64,000 bases of DNA from Micromonospora chaiyaphumensis. Lineage in GTDB: Bacteria > Actinomycetota > Actinomycetes > Mycobacteriales > Micromonosporaceae. How positions within the stretch are numbered: the stretch's first letter is position 1; the number at the start of each line of letters is the position of its first letter. The notes beneath the pieces are model-generated. The model did not search any database. It worked only from the letters and a program-made list of their open reading frames with translations, and was not told the origin of the DNA. The position numbers and the translations under genes are program-made. The DNA lies in NCBI RefSeq assembly GCF_900091435.1, contig NZ_FMCS01000002.1, positions 248,001 to 312,000 on the forward strand, read 5' to 3'. This document shows positions 40,283 to 50,368 of this stretch, in pieces.

Positions 40283-40429
40283 ACGTAGCAAGCCTACTTG
40301 TCCGCAGGTCGGGACGCCACCGGGGTGCGGCTCCCGGCGACGGTGGGACGCCCACTAGGGTATGTGCGCAGAGTCACTCGGCGGCCGAGCGCCACCGGGT
40401 GGGCAACCCGAAAGCACACGGAGGTCAGC

Positions 40430-41380
40430 GTGGCCCGCCAGTCGCCCCAACGGCCCGACGCCGACGAGCCCGAGCTCGACGACACCACCGCGTCGGCCGA
40501 AGCAGACGAGGTCGAGGTCGACCGCCCGGCGGCGGACCGCGCGCTCTGGGACGAGCTGCGGATCGACCCGGTGGAGATCGCCCTGCCCGCCGGCACCGGC
40601 TTCACGCTGCGGGCCTACCGGCCGGCGCGTGAGCTGACCCCGACCGACGTCGCCGAGCGCGACCTGGACGACCCCTTCCTGGCCCGCCGCCAGGTCGTCG
40701 AGACCGAGGACGACGAGGAGGTGGTGATCCTCGACGAGGAGTTCGCCGCCCTCGCGGCCGAGGAGGAGGACGACGAGGAGCCGGCCCGGCGCCGCCGGCG
40801 TGGCAGGGCCGAGGCGGCCGCGGACGAGGACGCCGCCGAGGAAACCGAGGCCGCCGACGAGGAGGACGAGGACGAGGCGGACGCCGCGGGCGACGAGGAG
40901 GTGCCCGTCTTCCTCACCCACCGGGGCAAGCTGCTGCTGTTCAAGACCCCGGAGTCGCTGGTCAGTTTCATCCGTTCCGGTGCGCCCAACGACCTGTCTC
41001 AACTGGACAGCTGGAATGAACTGTCCGAACGGGTTGAACCGGCCGACATCGCCCCGCTGGACGAGGACACCTACGAGCTCGACCTGGTAGTGGAGAACCT
41101 CCGCGGCGGCCACGACGCGTGGGACCCGACGCTGTTGATCGAAGCCGGTGAGATCGCCCGTGACCTGTCGTACGCGCTCCGGCTACCGGCTGTGCTCGAC
41201 ATGCTCTCCGCCGGTTCCAGCCTGGACGACCTGGACGAGGCGCTGCGCGCTTCTGTCAATGGCGGAATCGGTGGATTCCTGGGCCGGCGCCGACTGAAGA
41301 AAATCGGGGCACAAACCGCAAGTTTGGGTTGGCGCACCATTGTCGGCAAGATCTCTGCTGTTGTGGACTGGCGCGACTGA
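40430..41380 (+). CDS. Acidic protein of unknown function
   Basis: 316 residues in three parts. An acidic N-terminus (EPELDDTTASAEADEVEVDR) is followed by a conserved-looking stretch (IEIA... LRAYRPARELTP, DDPFLARRQVV). Then comes a long Asp/Glu/Ala tract around a basic ARRRRRGRA patch, and a globular C-terminal part with FLTHRGKLLLFKTPESLVSFI and RRLKKIGAQTASLGWRTIVG. No signal or membrane segment. Start GTG 40430 has GGAGG 5 bp upstream, an excellent site. It lies 66 bp upstream of the transposase-like fusion gene. I do not recognise a function. Confidence 0.7.
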   Translation: MARQSPQRPDADEPELDDTTASAEADEVEVDRPAADRALWDELRIDPVEIALPAGTGFTLRAYRPARELTPTDVAERDLDDPFLARRQVVETEDDEEVVILDEEFAALAAEEEDDEEPARRRRRGRAEAAADEDAAEETEAADEEDEDEADAAGDEEVPVFLTHRGKLLLFKTPESLVSFIRSGAPNDLSQLDSWNELSERVEPADIAPLDEDTYELDLVVENLRGGHDAWDPTLLIEAGEIARDLSYALRLPAVLDMLSAGSSLDDLDEALRASVNGGIGGFLGRRRLKKIGAQTASLGWRTIVGKISAVVDWRD

Positions 41381-41446
41381 CCCGGAGCGGGGAGCATCAG
41401 TCTCTGGCAGAACTAGACCTGTGTGTCCCGGGAGGAGGACGACGCC

Positions 41447-43807
41447 GTGGCGCTCGTGCGCGTGTACTGCGGTCTGGCCTCGGCGGATTCGGCCGACCGG
41501 TCGGCTTCGGCCGGATCGACGCTGACGTCCGCTGTGGTCGACGACGCAGGCCGTCTGCTGCATGTCTGCGAGATCGGTGACGACCCGGCTGGCTACGCCC
41601 AGCTGGTCGCGCTGCTCGTGGAGCGGTCGGGCGGGCCGAGCGGTGCGGCGATCGCGGCCGACAGCGACGACCACACGGTCACCTCGCTGCTGAGCGCGGC
41701 GGGTCGGCCGCTGGCGATCGCGGACGACGACTCGGTCGACGACTTCGCCGAGCGGTTCGCCGACGACGACTCGCTGGAGGAGATGCAGTCCCCGCCGGCC
41801 GAGCGCCGGGCGGTCGGGCTGGCCCGGGCCCTCCAGGCCGGCGCGCTCTCCGCGGTGACCCTCCCGGCCCCGCGCGACCTCGCCAACTACAAGCAGGTCC
41901 TCGCCGCGCACGCGGCACTGGCCAGCGGCCGGCACTCCGCCGCGGTGGCGCTGCGCGAGGTGCTCCGCGAGCTCTACCCGGCCGCGCTGCGCGCCTACCC
42001 CGACCCGGCCGAGCCGGTCTCCCTGGCCGTCCTCGACGCGCTGCCCGAGCCGGGCATGCTCGCCGGCACGGTGGCCCGGGGGCGCGAGGTCGCCGTGGCG
42101 GCGGACGCCGTCGCCGCGCACCTGGCCGCCGAGGGCGTTGCCGACCCCGACACCATCGACGACGCGGTGACCGCGCTGCGGGTCGCCATCTCCGAGACGC
42201 CCCGGCGGGCCACCGTCAACCGGGCACTCACCGCGGCCGTCGCCGAGACCGTGCGGCAGGCCGTCGCCTCCGTCCGGGCCTGCGACGCGGGCTGCGACGC
42301 GCTGGTCGGCGCGCTCAGCGCCCGGGTCACCACGCCCGCTCCGGCGCCGGGTCGCCGGGCCGCCGCGCGTCGCGGCGAGCAGGTCGAGGACCTGGCCCCG
42401 TCGACCCCCGCCGGGCTGCGCCCGGTGCGCCCGGCAGAGCCCGAGCCGGTCGCGGAGCAGGCCGGGCGGCGCAGCCGTCCCGAGCCGGTCTCCGGGCTGG
42501 CGGGTCGGCGCAGCCGCCCAGAGCCGGTCTCCGGGCCGGCCCCCACGGCCGCACCCCGACCGCTCGGCCCGCCGCCGGTGGCGCCCGCACCGGTCGCACC
42601 GCCGCCCGTCGCACCGGCCCCGGTCGCCCCGGCCGCGTCCCTCGGCCGGCCGGCCTCCGCGCCGCCCGCCCGCCCCGAGCCGACCGGTGCACCGCTGCCG
42701 TCGCGGGTGGACGGGCCGACCAACCGGCCCATCTCCGCCCCGCCACCGCCGCCGCCCGGGATCACCCCGATCGCCCCGGCGCAGCGCGGCGCGGTGCCGC
42801 CAGCCGAGGCCGGGGAGCCGTTCCGTCCCACGCTGACCACCGCCGCGATCAACAAGGCCCGGGCCGAGCGGCAGCGCACAGTCATCCCGCCGCGGCCCAA
42901 GACCAACCAGGAGCCGCCGACCGGTGGCTTCAGCGCCACCGACCTGACGATCCCGGTGCCGACGCCCCGCCCGGGCCAGGAGACCGCTCCCCCGGGCTCC
43001 CGGGCCAACTGGCCGCTCGTCAACAACGGCGACGAGCAGGACGACCGGGCCAAGGAGGCGCCGGCCTACCCGTACGGGCGGGGCGTGGACGCGCCGAGCG
43101 ACCCGGGCCGGGTCACCCCGCCCTGGCTCGCCGACGACCTGCCGCAGGAGCCGCCGATGCTGCGGCTGGTGGAGCCGCCGCCGCTGGCCGACCGGGCGCT
43201 GCGCAACGAGCTGGACCCGCCGACCGACCCCGGGCTGGACACGCGATCACTCCGGCTGGTCGACCGCCCGGAGGACAACCGGCCGAATCGCCCGGCTCCC
43301 CGTGCCGAGGCGCCCACTCCCCCGCTGGAGCGACGCCCCGCGCCCAAGGAGCACCGGCCACCGCCGGTCTCCGACGAGGGCGACGGCGACCTGCTGATCT
43401 TCGCGCAGGCCAAGTCGGCCTGGTTCGTCGGGCACGGCGACGAGGCCGACCTGGACTGGTCGACCACCGCGGACACCGGCTGGCAGGCGGCCGAGCAGGC
43501 GGCCCGCCCGTCGGTGGGCGACGAGACGAAGGCCGGCCTGCCCAAGCGGGTCCCGCAGGCCAACCTGGTGCCGGGTTCGCCGCTGCGCGAGGAGCGTCCA
43601 CTCCGGATCGTCCGCAATGCGGCCAGCCTCGCCGAGAACACGACCGGCTACTTCCGGGGTTGGCGGCGCGGCCAGGAGATCGGCGGTTTCGCCGTCGGCG
43701 GCCGCCCCGGCCGGGAGGCGGCCGGCGGCTGGGACTTCAGCCGGGACACCGGCGACCGCGACGACGAGCGGGAGTACGAGTACCGGTCCGCGGGCTACCG
43801 GTCCTGA
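41447..43807 (+). CDS. IS110-transposase-like (inactive) domain fused to a conservon-kinase-type tail
   Basis: 786 residues. Residues 1-265 follow the layout of an IS110-family DEDD transposase N-domain: AVVDDAGRLL strand, SLLSAAGRPLAIAD, and especially LRELYPAALRAYPD...PVSLAVLDALPEP, which is close to the IS110 core. The catalytic Asp/Glu positions (GxD, xEx, KxDxxDA) read GLA, AIAAD and SPPAERRA, so it looks catalytically dead. A Pro/Ala-rich linker (about 295-640) follows. The tail (645-760) has LLIFAQAKSAWF, DTGWQAA, GLPKRVPQANLVPG and YFRGWRRG, all matched in the conservon kinase at 46760-50368. GTG 41447 has GGGAGGAGG nearby. Probably a domesticated domain in a signalling system. Confidence 0.65.
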   Translation: MALVRVYCGLASADSADRSASAGSTLTSAVVDDAGRLLHVCEIGDDPAGYAQLVALLVERSGGPSGAAIAADSDDHTVTSLLSAAGRPLAIADDDSVDDFAERFADDDSLEEMQSPPAERRAVGLARALQAGALSAVTLPAPRDLANYKQVLAAHAALASGRHSAAVALREVLRELYPAALRAYPDPAEPVSLAVLDALPEPGMLAGTVARGREVAVAADAVAAHLAAEGVADPDTIDDAVTALRVAISETPRRATVNRALTAAVAETVRQAVASVRACDAGCDALVGALSARVTTPAPAPGRRAAARRGEQVEDLAPSTPAGLRPVRPAEPEPVAEQAGRRSRPEPVSGLAGRRSRPEPVSGPAPTAAPRPLGPPPVAPAPVAPPPVAPAPVAPAASLGRPASAPPARPEPTGAPLPSRVDGPTNRPISAPPPPPPGITPIAPAQRGAVPPAEAGEPFRPTLTTAAINKARAERQRTVIPPRPKTNQEPPTGGFSATDLTIPVPTPRPGQETAPPGSRANWPLVNNGDEQDDRAKEAPAYPYGRGVDAPSDPGRVTPPWLADDLPQEPPMLRLVEPPPLADRALRNELDPPTDPGLDTRSLRLVDRPEDNRPNRPAPRAEAPTPPLERRPAPKEHRPPPVSDEGDGDLLIFAQAKSAWFVGHGDEADLDWSTTADTGWQAAEQAARPSVGDETKAGLPKRVPQANLVPGSPLREERPLRIVRNAASLAENTTGYFRGWRRGQEIGGFAVGGRPGREAAGGWDFSRDTGDRDDEREYEYRSAGYRS

Positions 43808-43942
43808 TCGGAGCCTCCGCCCACCTCACCTGCGTGTTCCTGCCCACACCCGGAGAATTTGACGCCGGGAGCGGCCGGCCGGGAGCATACCCGGCGGACC
43901 GGCCGGCGGCGGGTGTTCGCCGGGGGTGGGAAGGCGGCTCCA

Positions 43943-45166
43943 ATGGCGACACCGGCAATCGACTCCTCTGTGCTCACCCGGCGGGGGGTCCTCGCCGCGG
44001 CGGCCGCCAGCCTGCTGCTCGCCGGCTGCGGGCAGCCGGGCGAGCGACCGGACGACGACTCCTCGGCCAGTAGCGCCCCCGGCAACCAGGACCTCGTCGT
44101 CGGCGCCAGCCTGGAACTGACCGGCCGGGGCGCCGCGCTCGGCGTGCCGCAGCAGCGCGCCCTCGAAATCACCGCGGAGGCGCTGAACGGGGTCGGCATT
44201 CCGGTGGGCAACCTCCGGCGGTCGGTCCGCCTGGAGATCCGGGACAACCGCAGCAACCCCGGGGAGGCGGCCCGTCAGGCCGCCGAGCTGACCCGGGCGG
44301 GCGCGCAGGCCCTGATCGGTGGCACCCTGGCCGAGACGTCGGTGGCCCTCGCGAAGGCGGCCCAGAAGGTCAAGACCCCCTTCCTCTCGCTGGGTCTCGG
44401 GGACGGCGTCGTGCTGCCGCTCGCCGAGCGCACCTTCAGCTTCCAGGTCACCCCGGACGCCATCGACGTGGCCCGCCGGCTGGCGGACCTGATCGGGGCC
44501 CAGCGGGTACGGCAGGTCGCCCTGCTGGCCGCCGACGGGCTGCACGGCGACTCCGGGGTGCGCGCGGTGCGTACGGCGCTGCACGGCACCGACGTGGACC
44601 TGGTCCGCACGGTCCGGCTGCCCGCCACCGGTCGGAGCTTCGCCGGCGCCGCTCGGCGGATCGCCGCCGTCGAGCCGGACGGGGTCATCGTCTGGGGCGC
44701 CGCACCGGACTCCGGTGTGGCGGCCCGGGAACTGCGCCGGGCCGACTACGACGGGCCGATCTTCTTCGACGCCGGCGCGGTCACCGCGGACACCCTCAGC
44801 GCCGCCAACGCCGCCGCGGTCGAGGGGGCGTACGCCGTGCATCCGGCCGGCCTGGGCGCCTCCGCGCTGACGGCCACGAGCACCGCGGATCTGGAGCGGC
44901 GGAACTTCAACGACCGTTACGCCCAGCGGTACGGCCGCTCCGACACCTTCGCCCCGTACGCCTCGGACGCGCTCCAGCTCGTGGCGGAGTCGGTCCGGCT
45001 CGCCACCAGCCTCGACCGTGGACGGTTGCGAGCCTTCCTGCAGACGCAGGTGGCCGAGGGCATCGCCGGCGGGTACGCCTTCACCGAGACCCGGCACGGC
45101 GGCATGGAGCCCGATTCGCTCGCCGCCTACGTGGTCGCACAGGGCAGCTGGCAGCTGTACGGCTGA
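43943..45166 (+). CDS. LivK-like periplasmic-binding lipoprotein (Tat signal), orphan
   Basis: 407 residues. Signal with twin arginine (TRRGVLAAAA, Arg13-Arg14) and lipobox LLAGC (Cys29), then a Peripla_BP_6 fold (VVGASLELTGRGAALG; ALIGGTLAETSVALA; DGLHGDSGVRAVRTAL; WGAAPDSGVAARELRRADYDG split over the hinge). The family binds amino acids or other small ligands outside the cell. No permease or ATPase lies nearby, so it is more likely a sensory input for the neighbouring conservon than part of a transporter. ATG 43943 is preceded by GGGAAGG; GTG 43913 is an alternative. Confidence 0.8.
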   Translation: MATPAIDSSVLTRRGVLAAAAASLLLAGCGQPGERPDDDSSASSAPGNQDLVVGASLELTGRGAALGVPQQRALEITAEALNGVGIPVGNLRRSVRLEIRDNRSNPGEAARQAAELTRAGAQALIGGTLAETSVALAKAAQKVKTPFLSLGLGDGVVLPLAERTFSFQVTPDAIDVARRLADLIGAQRVRQVALLAADGLHGDSGVRAVRTALHGTDVDLVRTVRLPATGRSFAGAARRIAAVEPDGVIVWGAAPDSGVAARELRRADYDGPIFFDAGAVTADTLSAANAAAVEGAYAVHPAGLGASALTATSTADLERRNFNDRYAQRYGRSDTFAPYASDALQLVAESVRLATSLDRGRLRAFLQTQVAEGIAGGYAFTETRHGGMEPDSLAAYVVAQGSWQLYG

Positions 45167-45285: not shown

Positions 45286-45879
45286 TCAGGCGGGGGCGAC
45301 GGCCCGCGAGCGCCGCATGGTGAGCACGTACTCGACCAGCGAGATCAGCACGTGCTTCGTCGACTCCCGGTTACGGGCGTCGCAGGCCACCACCGGCACG
45401 TCCGAGGAGATCGCGAGCGCGTCCCGGACGTCCTGCGGGTCGTGGTACTGCATCCCGTCGAAGCAGTTGATGGCCACCAGGTACGGCAGCCGCCGGTGCT
45501 CGAAGAAGTCGATGGCCGCGAAGCAGTCGGCCAGTCGACGGGTGTCGACAAGCACGACGGCGCCGATCGCGCCCCGGACCAGTTCGTCCCACATGAACCA
45601 GAACCGGGTCTGACCCGGCGTACCGAACAGGTACAGGATCAGATCGCGGTCGATCGAGATACGACCGAAGTCCATCGCCACCGTGGTCGTCGTCTTGCCC
45701 GGCACCTGCCGGGTGTCGTCGACGCCCACGCCGGCGGAGGTCATGATCGCCTCGGTGGTCAGCGGCGTGATCTCCGAGACCGAGCCGACCAGCGTCGTCT
45801 TGCCGACGCCGAATCCACCGGCAATAACGATCTTCGCCGACGTCACGCGCCCGCTCGGGGCCGGCGGCCGGTGCGACAT
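45286..45879 (-). CDS. cvnD: Conservon small GTPase-like protein (CvnD)
   Basis: 197 residues: G1 GGFGVGKTT (21-29), G3-type FGTPGQTRFWFMW and G4 position INCFD in place of NKxD. Conservon GTPases bind the membrane through partners and form a complex with CvnA-C, resembling G-protein signalling. Start ATG 45879 is one base after the cvnC stop, the usual conservon spacing; GTG 45900 would add seven residues. Last gene of the cvn operon. Confidence 0.9.
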   Translation of the reverse strand: MSHRPPAPSGRVTSAKIVIAGGFGVGKTTLVGSVSEITPLTTEAIMTSAGVGVDDTRQVPGKTTTTVAMDFGRISIDRDLILYLFGTPGQTRFWFMWDELVRGAIGAVVLVDTRRLADCFAAIDFFEHRRLPYLVAINCFDGMQYHDPQDVRDALAISSDVPVVACDARNRESTKHVLISLVEYVLTMRRSRAVAPA

Positions 45880-45880
45880 G

Positions 45881-46258
45881 TCAGAGCCTGCGAAGTCCAC
45901 TCAGCACCCTCTCCAGCAGTTCAGTGCCCACCGCGTCGTCGGAGTCGTCCAAAATGGTCGGCTCGTGGACCGCGACCAGGCCGTCCGTCGCCATGTCGGC
46001 GATGAGCACCCGGGCCACGCCGAGCGGAAGCTGCATCCGCGCCGCGATCTCGGCGAGCGACTGCACACGTCCGTCACACAGCGCGGCGATGTACTGGTGC
46101 TCACGGCCCTGGCCACCGTTGCCAGTGGCAACCGACCGGCCGCGCACCGTCGTCTCGACGAGCGCCTCCAGGGCGATCTCGAGCCGGGGGCGGGTACGAC
46201 CGCGGGTCACGGCGTACGGACGGACCAACGCTCCGGTCGGTTCGTCACGATCAACCAT
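45881..46258 (-). CDS. cvnC: Conservon DUF742 protein (CvnC)
   Basis: 125 residues with the DUF742 pattern LVRPYAVTRGRTRP and a winged-helix-like second half (SLAEIAARMQLPLGVARVLIADM; a dimerisation end LLERVLSGLRRL). The domain is a fixed member of conservons and is thought to mediate complex assembly. GGAGG eleven bases before ATG 46258. Confidence 0.9.
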   Translation of the reverse strand: MVDRDEPTGALVRPYAVTRGRTRPRLEIALEALVETTVRGRSVATGNGGQGREHQYIAALCDGRVQSLAEIAARMQLPLGVARVLIADMATDGLVAVHEPTILDDSDDAVGTELLERVLSGLRRL

Positions 46259-46358
46259 GTCGCCGCTCACCTCCTTCGTACCCGGCACCGGCTCGCCCCG
46301 GTGGCATTCGTCCTTGTCGTAGTTGTTGCCGCTCCTGACCCACCGGTCAGCGCGTCGT

Positions 46359-46763
46359 TCAGCCCATCATCCCGACAGCCGTGCGTGGCTGCGGGGTCAG
46401 AGCGTCGCCCACCCGGTCGACGAGCAGGGCCATCTCGTAACCGACCTGCCCGACGTCGCAGCTGCGCGCGGCGAGCACGGCGAAGGACGAGCCGTCCGAG
46501 ATGGACATCAGGAACAGGAAGCCGTTGTCCATCTCGACGACGGTCTGCAGCACCGCCCCGCCCTCGAAGCAGCGGGCCGCGCCCTGGGTCAGGCTGACCA
46601 GGCCGGACGCGATCGCCGCCAACTGGTCCGCGCGGTCCCGAGGGAGATCACGGGACGAAGCGAGGAGCAGGCCGTCGGCGGAGACGGCGACCGCGTGCGC
46701 CACACCGGGCACCCGGTCGGCGAAGTTGGCCAACAGCCATCCGAGATCCTGCGTAGTTGTCAT
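46359..46763 (-). CDS. cvnB: Conservon roadblock/LC7 protein (CvnB)
   Basis: 134 residues, roadblock/LC7 fold ([31 protein letters not shown]), a small dimerising scaffold that acts on Ras-like GTPases such as CvnD. ATG 46763 overlaps the kinase stop (ATGA), so both are coupled. Confidence 0.9.
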
Positions 46764-49700
46764 CCTTGTTGCTCCTTCTGCCCGCTCCCGGCCACTGGGC
46801 CTGAGCCAGACTGCGAGGACTGCTGCTGCCCGCCCGGAGTCCCCTCCGGGCCGGTGGAGTTGCTGTCGGTCGGGTTGCTGCGCCCCCGCTGCACGCCCCG
46901 ATGGTAGGCCGAGAGCAGACCCCGTACGCCCTCCGGCGTGCGGCGCTGCACCGACGTGGACGGCTTCTCGATGCCACCGGGCACGAGCTGCGCCATCGGC
47001 GTCCGCTTCGGCAGGCCCTTCTGGGTGGTCTCCTCGACCGGGACCTCGGTGGCCGCGGAGGCGGCCCGCCAACCGTCGTCGGCCGCGGTCTGCCAACCAG
47101 GCTGCGGCGGCGCGGCGGGCTGCCGGGTCGGCAGCGCACCGGCGTAACCGGAACGGGCACTCCCGTTCGCCGAGCCGTTGTCGCGCGGCGCTCCGCCGGC
47201 CGTCGGAGGGTGTGCCATCGGTGTGTTACCTGTCGTCCCGGGTGGTGTCTGCTGGACGGCCCGACCGGCGGTGTCGACCTTGGCGAACTGCTGGGTCGCG
47301 GCGCCGTTGGCCGCCGTGGGCTCCGCAGCGGCCGCCTCCTCCTTGGGCGCCGGCCGGCTGGTGCGGAACCAGGCCGACTCGAGCTCCCGGAAGATCGGCA
47401 GCTCCATCGTCTCGTCCGCGTACCGCTGGCGGTTGCCCGGCTGCTGCGGGGTGGCCGCCCGTGGCGCGGGGACCGGCGCGGGCGGGTTGACCGCCGGCGT
47501 CTCCGGGCGGGTCACCCGGGGCAGCTCGGTGGTCATGTCCAGGCCGGCGGCGAGCCGCTCGGGCACCGCCGGGGCCGCGGCCTGGTCGGGCGTGGCCACC
47601 GGCGGCCAGGCCGGCGGGGCACCGACCTGCGGCGCGGGAGCCGGCGGGGCGGGACGCGGCGGCACCTGGTTCACCGGAGGCACCGAGACCGGGTAACCCG
47701 CGGCCGGCGACGCCGACACGGGCTGACCGGAGGCGGGCACCCCCGACACGGGGTAACCGGACGCCGGGGCGCCGGAGACCGGGTAGCCCTGGGCCGGAGC
47801 GCCGGAGACCGGGTAGCCCTGGGCCGGCGAGCCGGAGACCGGGTAGCCCGAGACCGGGTGACCGGAGACCGGGACACCCGAGACCGGCGGGACCGGCGGG
47901 GCGGAGACCGGCGGCGGGTTGTACGGCCCGACCTCCGGGCTGCTCGGCAGCTGCCGCGGGATGGCCGGCTGCTGGCCCGTGGAGGCCGGGTCGGCCTCGG
48001 CGGGGTTGCGCCGCTGGGGCAGCGGGTCGATCGGCTGGCCGTTCGAGCTGCGCGGGGTGAAGCCGTCGCCGCCAGCCAGGGCCCCGGCGCCGGTCAGGTC
48101 GGACCAGGCCGGCATGGAGCGGCCCCCGCCCGCGTTGGCCGGGGTGCCGGAGCCGTTGCGCGACGCCGGGTCGAAGGACCGCCCGCCCAGGGTGACCTGG
48201 TTGCCGGAGGCACCGGGGTGCGGAGCCGGCGGCGGGGTGTGCGGGCCGTTGCCGAGGGCGGCCAGGGCACCGAAGGCCGGGGCGGGACCGCCCTGCTGCG
48301 GGCCACCGAAGGTCGGGGCGAGACCGCCCTGCAGCGGGCCACCGGCGGCCGGGAGGGCCGGTGCAGGCTGGCCGCGGCCGGCGAGGGCACGCGGCACCAG
48401 GACCGAGGTGGGCAGCGTGACGTCCGCGACCGTGCCCCGGTCGGCGCCGGGCCGCAGCTCGACCTTGACGCCGTGCCGGGAGGCCAGCCGGGCGACCACG
48501 ACCAGACCCATCATCCGGGAGACCGCCACGTCCACCTGCGGCGGCGTGGCCAGCCGCTCGTTCAGCTCGCGGAGCTGCTCGTGGCTGATACCGATGCCCC
48601 GGTCCTCGACGTAGAGCGAGGCGCGGTCGCCCACCCGCCGGGCCTCCACCATGACGTGCGAGTCCGGCGGGGAGAAGGCGGTGGCGTTGTCGAACAGCTC
48701 GGCGACCAGGTGCACGAGGTCGTTGACCGCGTGCGCGGCGACCTCGATGTCCCGGTCGATCACGCCGAACTCGATCCGCGTGTAGTGCTCGACCTCGGAC
48801 TGCGCGGCGCGGAGCACGTCGATCAGGGCGGCCGGCTCGCGCTGCACGCGGGTGGAGTCCGCGCCGGCGAGAACCAGGAGGTTCTCGTCGTTGCGGCGCA
48901 TCCGGGTGGCCAGGTGGTCGAGCTGGAACAGCTCGGCCAGCCGGTCCGGGTCCTCCTCGCCGCGCTCCAGCCGGTCGAGGTGGCCGATCAGCCGGTCGAC
49001 CAGGATCTGCGACCGGCGGGCCAGGTTGACGAACATGGTCGCGACGGAGGCCCGCAGGGCGGCCTGCTCGGCCGCGGTCCGGACCGCCTCCAGGTGGACG
49101 GCGTTGAACGCCTCGGTCACCTGACCGAACTCGTCCTTGCTGCGGACCGGCAGCGGCTCGGCGATCTGGTTGGCCAGCTGCACCGGGGAGAGCTGCCCGG
49201 TGACCTGCGGGTCGCGCAGCCGGGCGACCGCCTGCGGCAGGCCGTACTGGGCCACCGAGAGGGCGCCCTGGCGCAGGTCGCGCAGCGAGCGGGCCATGGA
49301 TCGGGCGACCAGGTAGGCGAAGAGGATGGCCAGCAGCAGCATGCTCAGCAGCAGGCCGGTCTCCAGGAACACCTGGCGCTGGGTGTCCGACCGCAGCTCG
49401 TCGGCCTGACGCACCACGTTGGCGTCCAGCCGGTCCTCGACCGTCCGGATCAGCTTGGCGTAGTTCACCATGGTGGCGTCCCAGTCGTCCGTCGTGAACG
49501 GCGGTTTCGACAGGTCGCCGGAGGTGTTCGCCTGGACAGCGGTGGTGTAACGCTCGGCCTTGCGCAGGTCCGAGCCGCTGACGGTCTGGTCGAAGAACTC
49601 GGAGTCGGCCTGGTTGGCGACCGCCTTGAAGTTCTGGAACGCCTGCGTCTGGCCCGTGCGGCTGGCGATGAACTGCTCACGCAGGTTCGGGGTGAGCTGC

Positions 49701-50368
49701 GCCGCGTTCAGCGCCTCGTGGACGATCACCCGGCGCTGGGCCAGGAATTCCTTCTGCCGGGCGACCGCGGCCGCGGCGCGCATCCGGTCGCTCAGGTCGT
49801 TGTCGCCGGCGAGCTGGATGGCCGAGTCGCGGATGGCCAGCAGGTCACTGATCAGTGCCTCGTAGGACCGCTGGGCGTCGGCACTGGTCAGCTTGCCGTT
49901 GTAGACCTGGCTCCGGGTGCCCGGCAGGTCGGCCAGCCCCTGGTCGACGACCTTCAGCCGGGCCTCGAACGTGCGCGGCAGGTCGTCGATCGCCAGGCGC
50001 TGCCGGGAGTAGGGCGCCTTCGCCTGGTCGACCCGCTGGTTGGCCCGGTTGTAGGCCTCCTGGTACTGCGCCCGTGTCTGCACTCCCTTCGCACCGAGGA
50101 AGAGCACCGAGTTGACCCGCTCGTCCTGGAGCGTGTCGGCCAGGTCGCCCGAGTAGGAGATCAGGTTCGACAGGTCACCGGCCCGGTTGGCATTGTTGAG
50201 CGTCTCCAGGTGGTCGACCAGACCGCTGGTGCCGACCACGACTGTCGCGATGGTCGGCACGATCATGATCAGGCCGAGCTTGGACCAGATCGGCATGTCG
50301 CGGAGCCGGCTGGCCGGCCGGCTCAGACGCGACAGGAAGGAGCCCGCCGTCGTTGGCCGTTTGCTCAC
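46760..50368 (-). CDS. cvnA: Conservon sensor histidine kinase-like protein (CvnA)
   Basis: 1202 residues. N-terminal helix (about 31-50), nitrate/nitrite-sensing-type extracellular domain (about 60-335), second helix (336-356), HAMP-like region, dimerisation helix with candidate phospho-His in [13 protein letters not shown], and an ATPase domain with N box [14 protein letters not shown] and G1 [10 protein letters not shown] disordered half follows (about 660-1200), with a PVSG repeat array (about 824-895), then [10 protein letters not shown] (about 991), [14 protein letters not shown] (about 1117) and YHRGVQRG (about 1153), shared with the adjacent transposase-like protein. No response regulator nearby, as usual for conservons. 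GTG 50368 has GAGGGC upstream. Confidence 0.88.
47683..47896 (-). repeat. PVSG repeat array in the CvnA linker
   Basis: Tandem 15- to 30-base units encode P-V-S-G-(Y/A/S/V/H) and P-A-(Q/S)-G-Y variants, about fourteen in a row. Low-complexity coding repeat likely to vary in copy number between strains. Confidence 0.75.

Follow-up and report, generated by a model that had tools for sequence, protein, structure and literature searches.

An apparently inactive IS110-type transposase core with a CvnA-type tail in Micromonosporaceae

A stretch of 64,000 nucleotides (nt) from Micromonospora chaiyaphumensis (assembly GCF_900091435.1, contig NZ_FMCS01000002.1, positions 248,001-312,000; here called the window) contains a gene for a 786-residue protein, which we label X (Table 1). 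X joins the core of an IS110-type transposase, in which at least three of the four catalytic residues are lost and the Tnp domain is undetected, to a C-terminal tail of the type found in CvnA, the kinase-like sensor protein of the neighbouring conservon, a kind of G-protein system known from actinobacteria. We hypothesize that X takes the place of CvnA without having a kinase and docks Roadblock (CvnB-type) proteins, and assign this reading a probability of roughly 0.55.

The core of X, comprising the RuvC part and the helical region, descends from an IS110-type transposase. Searched alone, the N-terminal part of X finds an intact transposase in another bacterial family (L110; E = 1.6e-14, 31% identity), which carries both PF01548 and PF02371. 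Profile-profile comparison of X with 11 IS110 proteins, found by PF01548, gave E = 3.8e-17 across 200 columns; an unrelated control reached E = 0.67. The structure model of the core is confident and matches the RuvC domains of IS621 and ISCro4. Together, the sequence search, the profile comparison and the model confirm the IS110 origin, and agree with the original prediction, which had residues 1-265 tracking the IS110 N-terminal domain and proposed a comparison of predicted and known RuvC structures. The hidden Markov models proposed for the same purpose gave a mixed outcome. PF01548 matched 21 of 42 relatives at E ≤ 0.1 (best 1.2e-7), but the N-terminal part of the window protein reached only E = 0.029, under the curated cut-off, and the whole protein gave no PF01548 match. 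The Tnp domain (PF02371) was undetected in X (E ≤ 1) and in the relatives L148 and L150 (E ≤ 0.01), and was found in the L110 control. X thus resembles the IS110 recombinases IS621 and ISCro4 in its RuvC fold and long-helix region, colinear over ~200 profile columns, and differs from IS110 proteins in its replaced first, third and fourth DEDD residues, undetected PF02371, acidic helical part, replaced C-terminus, absence of element ends and single conserved locus.

To examine the active site, 147 X rows were aligned with 12 IS110 rows; many of the X rows are close relatives, so that the counts are not independent events. All 12 IS110 rows carry D, E, D and D at the four DEDD positions (counts for X in Table 1). 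The first position is Ala or Thr in 142 of the 147 X rows and Asp in none; the third is Ala in 121. The claim that the DEDD site was lost therefore stands for the first, third and fourth residues, but not fully for the Glu position, which keeps an acidic residue in most rows. Recombination by IS621 is reported to be abolished when any single residue among D11, E60, D102, D105 and S241 (the last in the Tnp domain) is changed (PMC11208158). Because at least three of four catalytic residues are lost, the Tnp domain is undetected and single changes suffice in IS621, we strongly infer that X is catalytically inactive. The cores of L147 and L151 keep Asp at the fourth position (2/147), perhaps left over from the ancestral active site.

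Residues 1 to ~290 of X form the folded core, and are followed by a Pro/Ala-rich arm (~291-645) and a conserved tail (646-743), an order of parts that had been predicted from the window alone; the motifs quoted there are present in the translation. The arm, with 24% Pro in residues 291-630, is probably disordered. In the tail, residues 679-751 (794-residue numbering) show 41% identity to the C-terminal end of the window's CvnA across a 75-residue alignment (E = 2e-9), with a score of 128 versus a maximum of 64 in 500 shuffles, which bears out the description of the tail as conservon-kinase-like. Four motifs are common to the two tails (PIF/LIF...SAWF, W.TAAD.GW.AA, GLP[KR]R.P.A.LVPG and a YxRG..RGR-like end), the SAWF stretch of the window's CvnA lying ~90 residues further upstream than in X. 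A strict tail pattern is present in 104 of 110 full-length X open reading frames (ORFs). Outside the tail, X is unlike CvnA: a Pfam scan of X gave no NIT, HAMP or HATPase match, and its peak 19-residue hydropathy is 1.2, compared with 2.4 in CvnA, with no segment typical of a membrane helix.

Searched with a profile built from X and CvnA tails, 35 of 98 genomes in the class proved to contain such tails. Twenty tail ORFs other than X were examined, 4 from this genome and 16 from others. Each is followed on the same strand by a Roadblock gene, within 200 nt in 19 cases and at ~219 nt in one, and HATPase_c was found in 19/19 of the proteins scanned (L237 was left out). X is thus the only kinase-less tail protein in the examined set. 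Elsewhere in this genome, a CvnA-type protein (L223:4141-8733) has its NIT domain starting only at residue 599, and the long part before it gave no Pfam match at E ≤ 0.001. At L241, two Roadblock genes lie ~2 kb apart, near a tail-bearing CvnA-type gene.

The tail is accompanied by a Roadblock gene in X as well. Fourteen of 45 loci, each belonging to a deep-branching genus, have a second and distinct Roadblock gene immediately after X on the same strand. Seven of these private genes have candidate starts overlapping the X stop by 4 bases, six start within 15 nt, and the one at L142 starts after 118 nt; PF03259 was found in both of the two proteins scanned. The 14 private proteins (L140-L151, L161 and L167) form one clade (support 100/100) apart from 37 other CvnB-type proteins. 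In the window, cvnA and cvnB overlap as ATGA, in the same fashion as X and its private Roadblock gene. X thus stood where a cvnA would precede a cvnB, with the IS110 core replacing sensor and kinase. No private Roadblock gene lies behind X in the window. With IS110 as the root, the tree of X cores unites X in a single clade (100/100) and nests the 30 rows lacking a private Roadblock gene together within the rows having one (fork 93/83), so that a single loss would suffice to explain its absence, including from the lineage of this genome.

CvnA9 was found to interact with CvnB9 and CvnC9 by two-hybrid assay (Komatsu 2006, reported in PMC8510531). MfpD, a CvnB homolog, is reported to be a GTPase activator, and MfpC, a CvnC homolog, a likely exchange factor; the same source describes signal transfer by CvnA as largely unexplored (PMC13343842). 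Because X and CvnA have only the tail in common, and because genes encoding tails precede Roadblock genes, the tail as a docking element is the simplest reading, and docking of Roadblock proteins by X is predicted as likely. In the mechanism that we propose, the long helices would still pair two protein copies, the arm would be flexible, and the tail would bind Roadblock proteins, or CvnC. X would then be a soluble, kinase-less adaptor that holds Roadblock or CvnC proteins on a dimeric, inert transposase core, and could alter how these act on the GTPase CvnD, competing or cooperating with CvnA. Where the private Roadblock gene was lost, as in the present lineage, the CvnB of a conservon may serve the X tail.

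The position of X beside a conservon, as originally predicted, holds for most loci. All four conservon genes lie within ~7 kb of X in 49/49 named loci longer than 20 kb. Of the 40 loci taken from other genomes, 35 extend at least 6.5 kb downstream, and in 30 of these cvnD, cvnC and cvnB are convergent to X. The five exceptions are L143, L146, L148, L150 and a paralog, L152; in the genomes of the first four, a cvnD 79-82% identical to that of the window lies elsewhere, 13 kb to megabases away. The proposed survey of X beside cvnABCD thus found the conservon nearby in most loci, but a tighter partner, the Roadblock gene directly behind X, in deep-branching genera. The L152 copy (L152:6094-7524) is a second, diverged X with ~40% core identity and a full tail; it has no conservon, SatS-like or Roadblock neighbors, and the same genome carries the usual copy too.

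Several points weigh against Roadblock docking by X. The tie between tail and Roadblock is one of gene order, and would also arise from mere shared ancestry with cvnA. Most genera, including this one, lack the private Roadblock gene, yet X and its tail persist, and the private clade is not a recent copy of the neighboring cvnB. X remains with its own Roadblock gene in four deep-branching genomes whose conservon is located elsewhere. Moreover, ABC-transporter and SatS-like genes are equally linked to X (49/49), so that the linkage to the conservon may be inherited order; because these genes are linked as faithfully, the gene order of X is in itself weak evidence.

The alternatives differ in which part of X would matter. 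One is that X is a nucleic-acid-binding regulator, in which the inactive RuvC part and Nop-like helices hold structured RNA or DNA and the tail reports to the G-protein system. TldR proteins, which come from transposon nucleases of the TnpB family, act as RNA-guided regulators. X likewise corresponds to a transposon enzyme without its nuclease, but comes from IS110 instead of TnpB, shows no guide RNA and is coupled to a G-protein system. Box C/D Nop proteins, for their part, are described as holding RNA with an inactive RuvC part. The likeness of X to Nop5 and Nop56/58, namely an inactive RuvC-like part followed by putative Nop-type helices, exists at the level of the fold only; a comparison of X with solved structures gave no detectable Nop5/Nop56/58 sequence match at E ≤ 1, and the partners differ. 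The net charge of the helical part per 100 residues is −1.8 in X (147 rows, −7.0 to 0.7) versus +2.8 in IS110 (12 rows, 1.4 to 4.3), with disjoint ranges. The charge of this part, acidic in X and basic in IS110, points to a role in binding protein more than RNA, and the acidic surface argues against binding of a guide RNA as in Nop-domain proteins. We regard the regulator as unlikely, and a full G-protein pathway with a nucleic-acid-reading input, in which the RuvC-Nop core would hold structured RNA or DNA and the tail would relay to Roadblock and GTPase, as slightly less likely again.

Just as unlikely as the nucleic-acid regulator, in our estimate, is that X modulates CvnA itself, its core binding CvnA or the HAMP/kinase part and its tail being secondary. 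Conservon accessory proteins of this kind exist: the GAF protein CvnF8 is reported to stimulate the ATPase activity and autophosphorylation of CvnA8 (PMC13343842). Like X, CvnE (a P450) and CvnF are extra proteins encoded near a conservon. However, CvnE and CvnF are reported to accompany CvnA proteins that have no sensory domain (PMC13343842), whereas the CvnA beside X contains a complete NIT domain (E = 4.1e-43). X is also convergent to the conservon and not behind cvnD, and it resembles CvnA in its tail, with no P450 or GAF match in domain-model scans.

Somewhat more doubtful still is that X is a decaying relic, its core an inert platform for solubility or dimerization with no specific role, so that nothing beyond the tail, or not even the tail, would be of importance. 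The former active site bears several substitutions and identity falls to ~25-32% in deep-branching genera, both of which are compatible with decay; the pattern of selection and the distribution of X argue against it. When the window gene was paired with 22 others, the ratio of nonsynonymous to synonymous substitution rates (dN/dS) had a median of 0.14 in the core, 0.28 in the arm and 0.08 in the tail; X is under purifying selection, which is strongest on the tail. Eighteen core columns are invariant in 42 diverse X rows. The core has a match in 148 of 150 Micromonosporaceae genomes and in 43 of 44 genera (E ≤ 0.01; some matches partial), with one match per genome in most of them. In a search of 249 genomes of the order, the 42 genomes of the family, among the matches listed, scored 2.6e-62 or better; matches outside the family scored 7.9e-24 or worse, in frames mostly of IS110 length.

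The original prediction of a domesticated, inactive IS110 domain holds, given the homology, the DEDD losses, the undetected Tnp domain, the CvnA-type tail and the presence of X across the family, as a single gene in most genomes. No transposon ends were seen around X, as had been noted: repeats within positions 41300-43900 are imperfect and mostly internal, and the genes flanking X recur in other genera. Other traits of a mobile element, namely several sites and a bridge RNA region (sought with Rfam only), were likewise not found. It is extremely improbable that X is an IS110 element active now or until recently, or an ORF misread from low-complexity sequence, although public records call it a transposase, since most genomes hold one match with fixed neighbors, the Tnp domain is undetected, the first catalytic Asp is lost in 147/147 relatives, the repeats are imperfect only, and the whole M. 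chaiyaphumensis genome has one match to the X core, its sole PF01548 match over the cut-off being another protein.

Features of the X locus are collected in Table 1. The longest ORF for X opens at 41423; because GGAGGAGG stands just before the GTG at 41447 (41430-41438, read from the sequence), the latter is likely the start, as originally proposed. The flanks of X measure 42 and 51 nt. Of 39 loci that extend far enough upstream, 37 have the SatS-like gene beside X; this gene has an acidic low-complexity N-terminal part, and remains beside X even where the conservon moved away.

Table 1. Positions of X, its parts and neighboring genes in the window
Feature	Position	Strand	Basis or remark
Gene X: inactive (inferred) IS110 core, Pro/Ala arm, CvnA-type tail	41447..43807	+	ORF; start codon inferred from preceding GGAGGAGG
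RuvC/RNase H-like part, model residues 3-142	41456..41875	+	
Ala 11, position of first catalytic Asp	41477..41479	+	Asp 0/147 X relatives vs 12/12 IS110
Asp 72, position of catalytic Glu	41660..41662	+	Asp 141/147, Glu 2/147; Glu 12/12 IS110
Ala 118, position of third catalytic Asp	41798..41800	+	Asp 3/147, Glu 3/147; Asp 12/12 IS110
Arg 121, position of fourth catalytic Asp	41807..41809	+	Arg 136/147, Asp 2/147; Asp 12/12 IS110
Long-helix region, counterpart of IS110 coiled-coil / Nop-like RNA-binding part	41882..42337	+	
Pro/Ala-rich arm	42317..43381	+	Composition; highest dN/dS of the three X parts
CvnA-type tail	43382..43675	+	LLIF...SAWF, W..TAD.GW.AA, GLPKRVPQANLVPG, YFRGWRRGQ
Upstream gene, weak similarity to SatS export chaperone model	40298..41380	+	NF050072, 38 bits vs cut-off 700
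Substrate-binding lipoprotein-like gene between X and conservon	43859..45166	+	PF13458; in 23/49 long named loci
cvnD, small GTPase	45286..45900	-	PF03029 and weaker GTPase models; conservon naming by gene set
cvnC, DUF742	45881..46288	-	PF05331
cvnB, Roadblock/LC7	46359..46763	-	PF03259; ATG overlaps cvnA stop as ATGA
cvnA, NIT-HAMP-HATPase sensor protein	46760..50368	-	PF08376, PF00672, PF02518; tail motifs 47401-46880

NCBI names most of the 120 X relatives listed 'transposase', a misleading label in hundreds of Micromonosporaceae records. Our literature searches on conservons, IS110 and domestication found no description of an X-like protein, and no domesticated IS110 protein that stopped acting on DNA. 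Domesticated inactive transposases and extra conservon components are each known as kinds; their combination was not found described. If our reading is true, X represents an old, family-wide capture of an IS110 recombinase core as a signaling part. As a natural experiment, in which a kinase-less protein has only the tail in common with CvnA, X points to the C-terminal tail of CvnA as the element linking inputs to the Roadblock/GTPase switch, and would make the question of signal transfer by CvnA directly testable.
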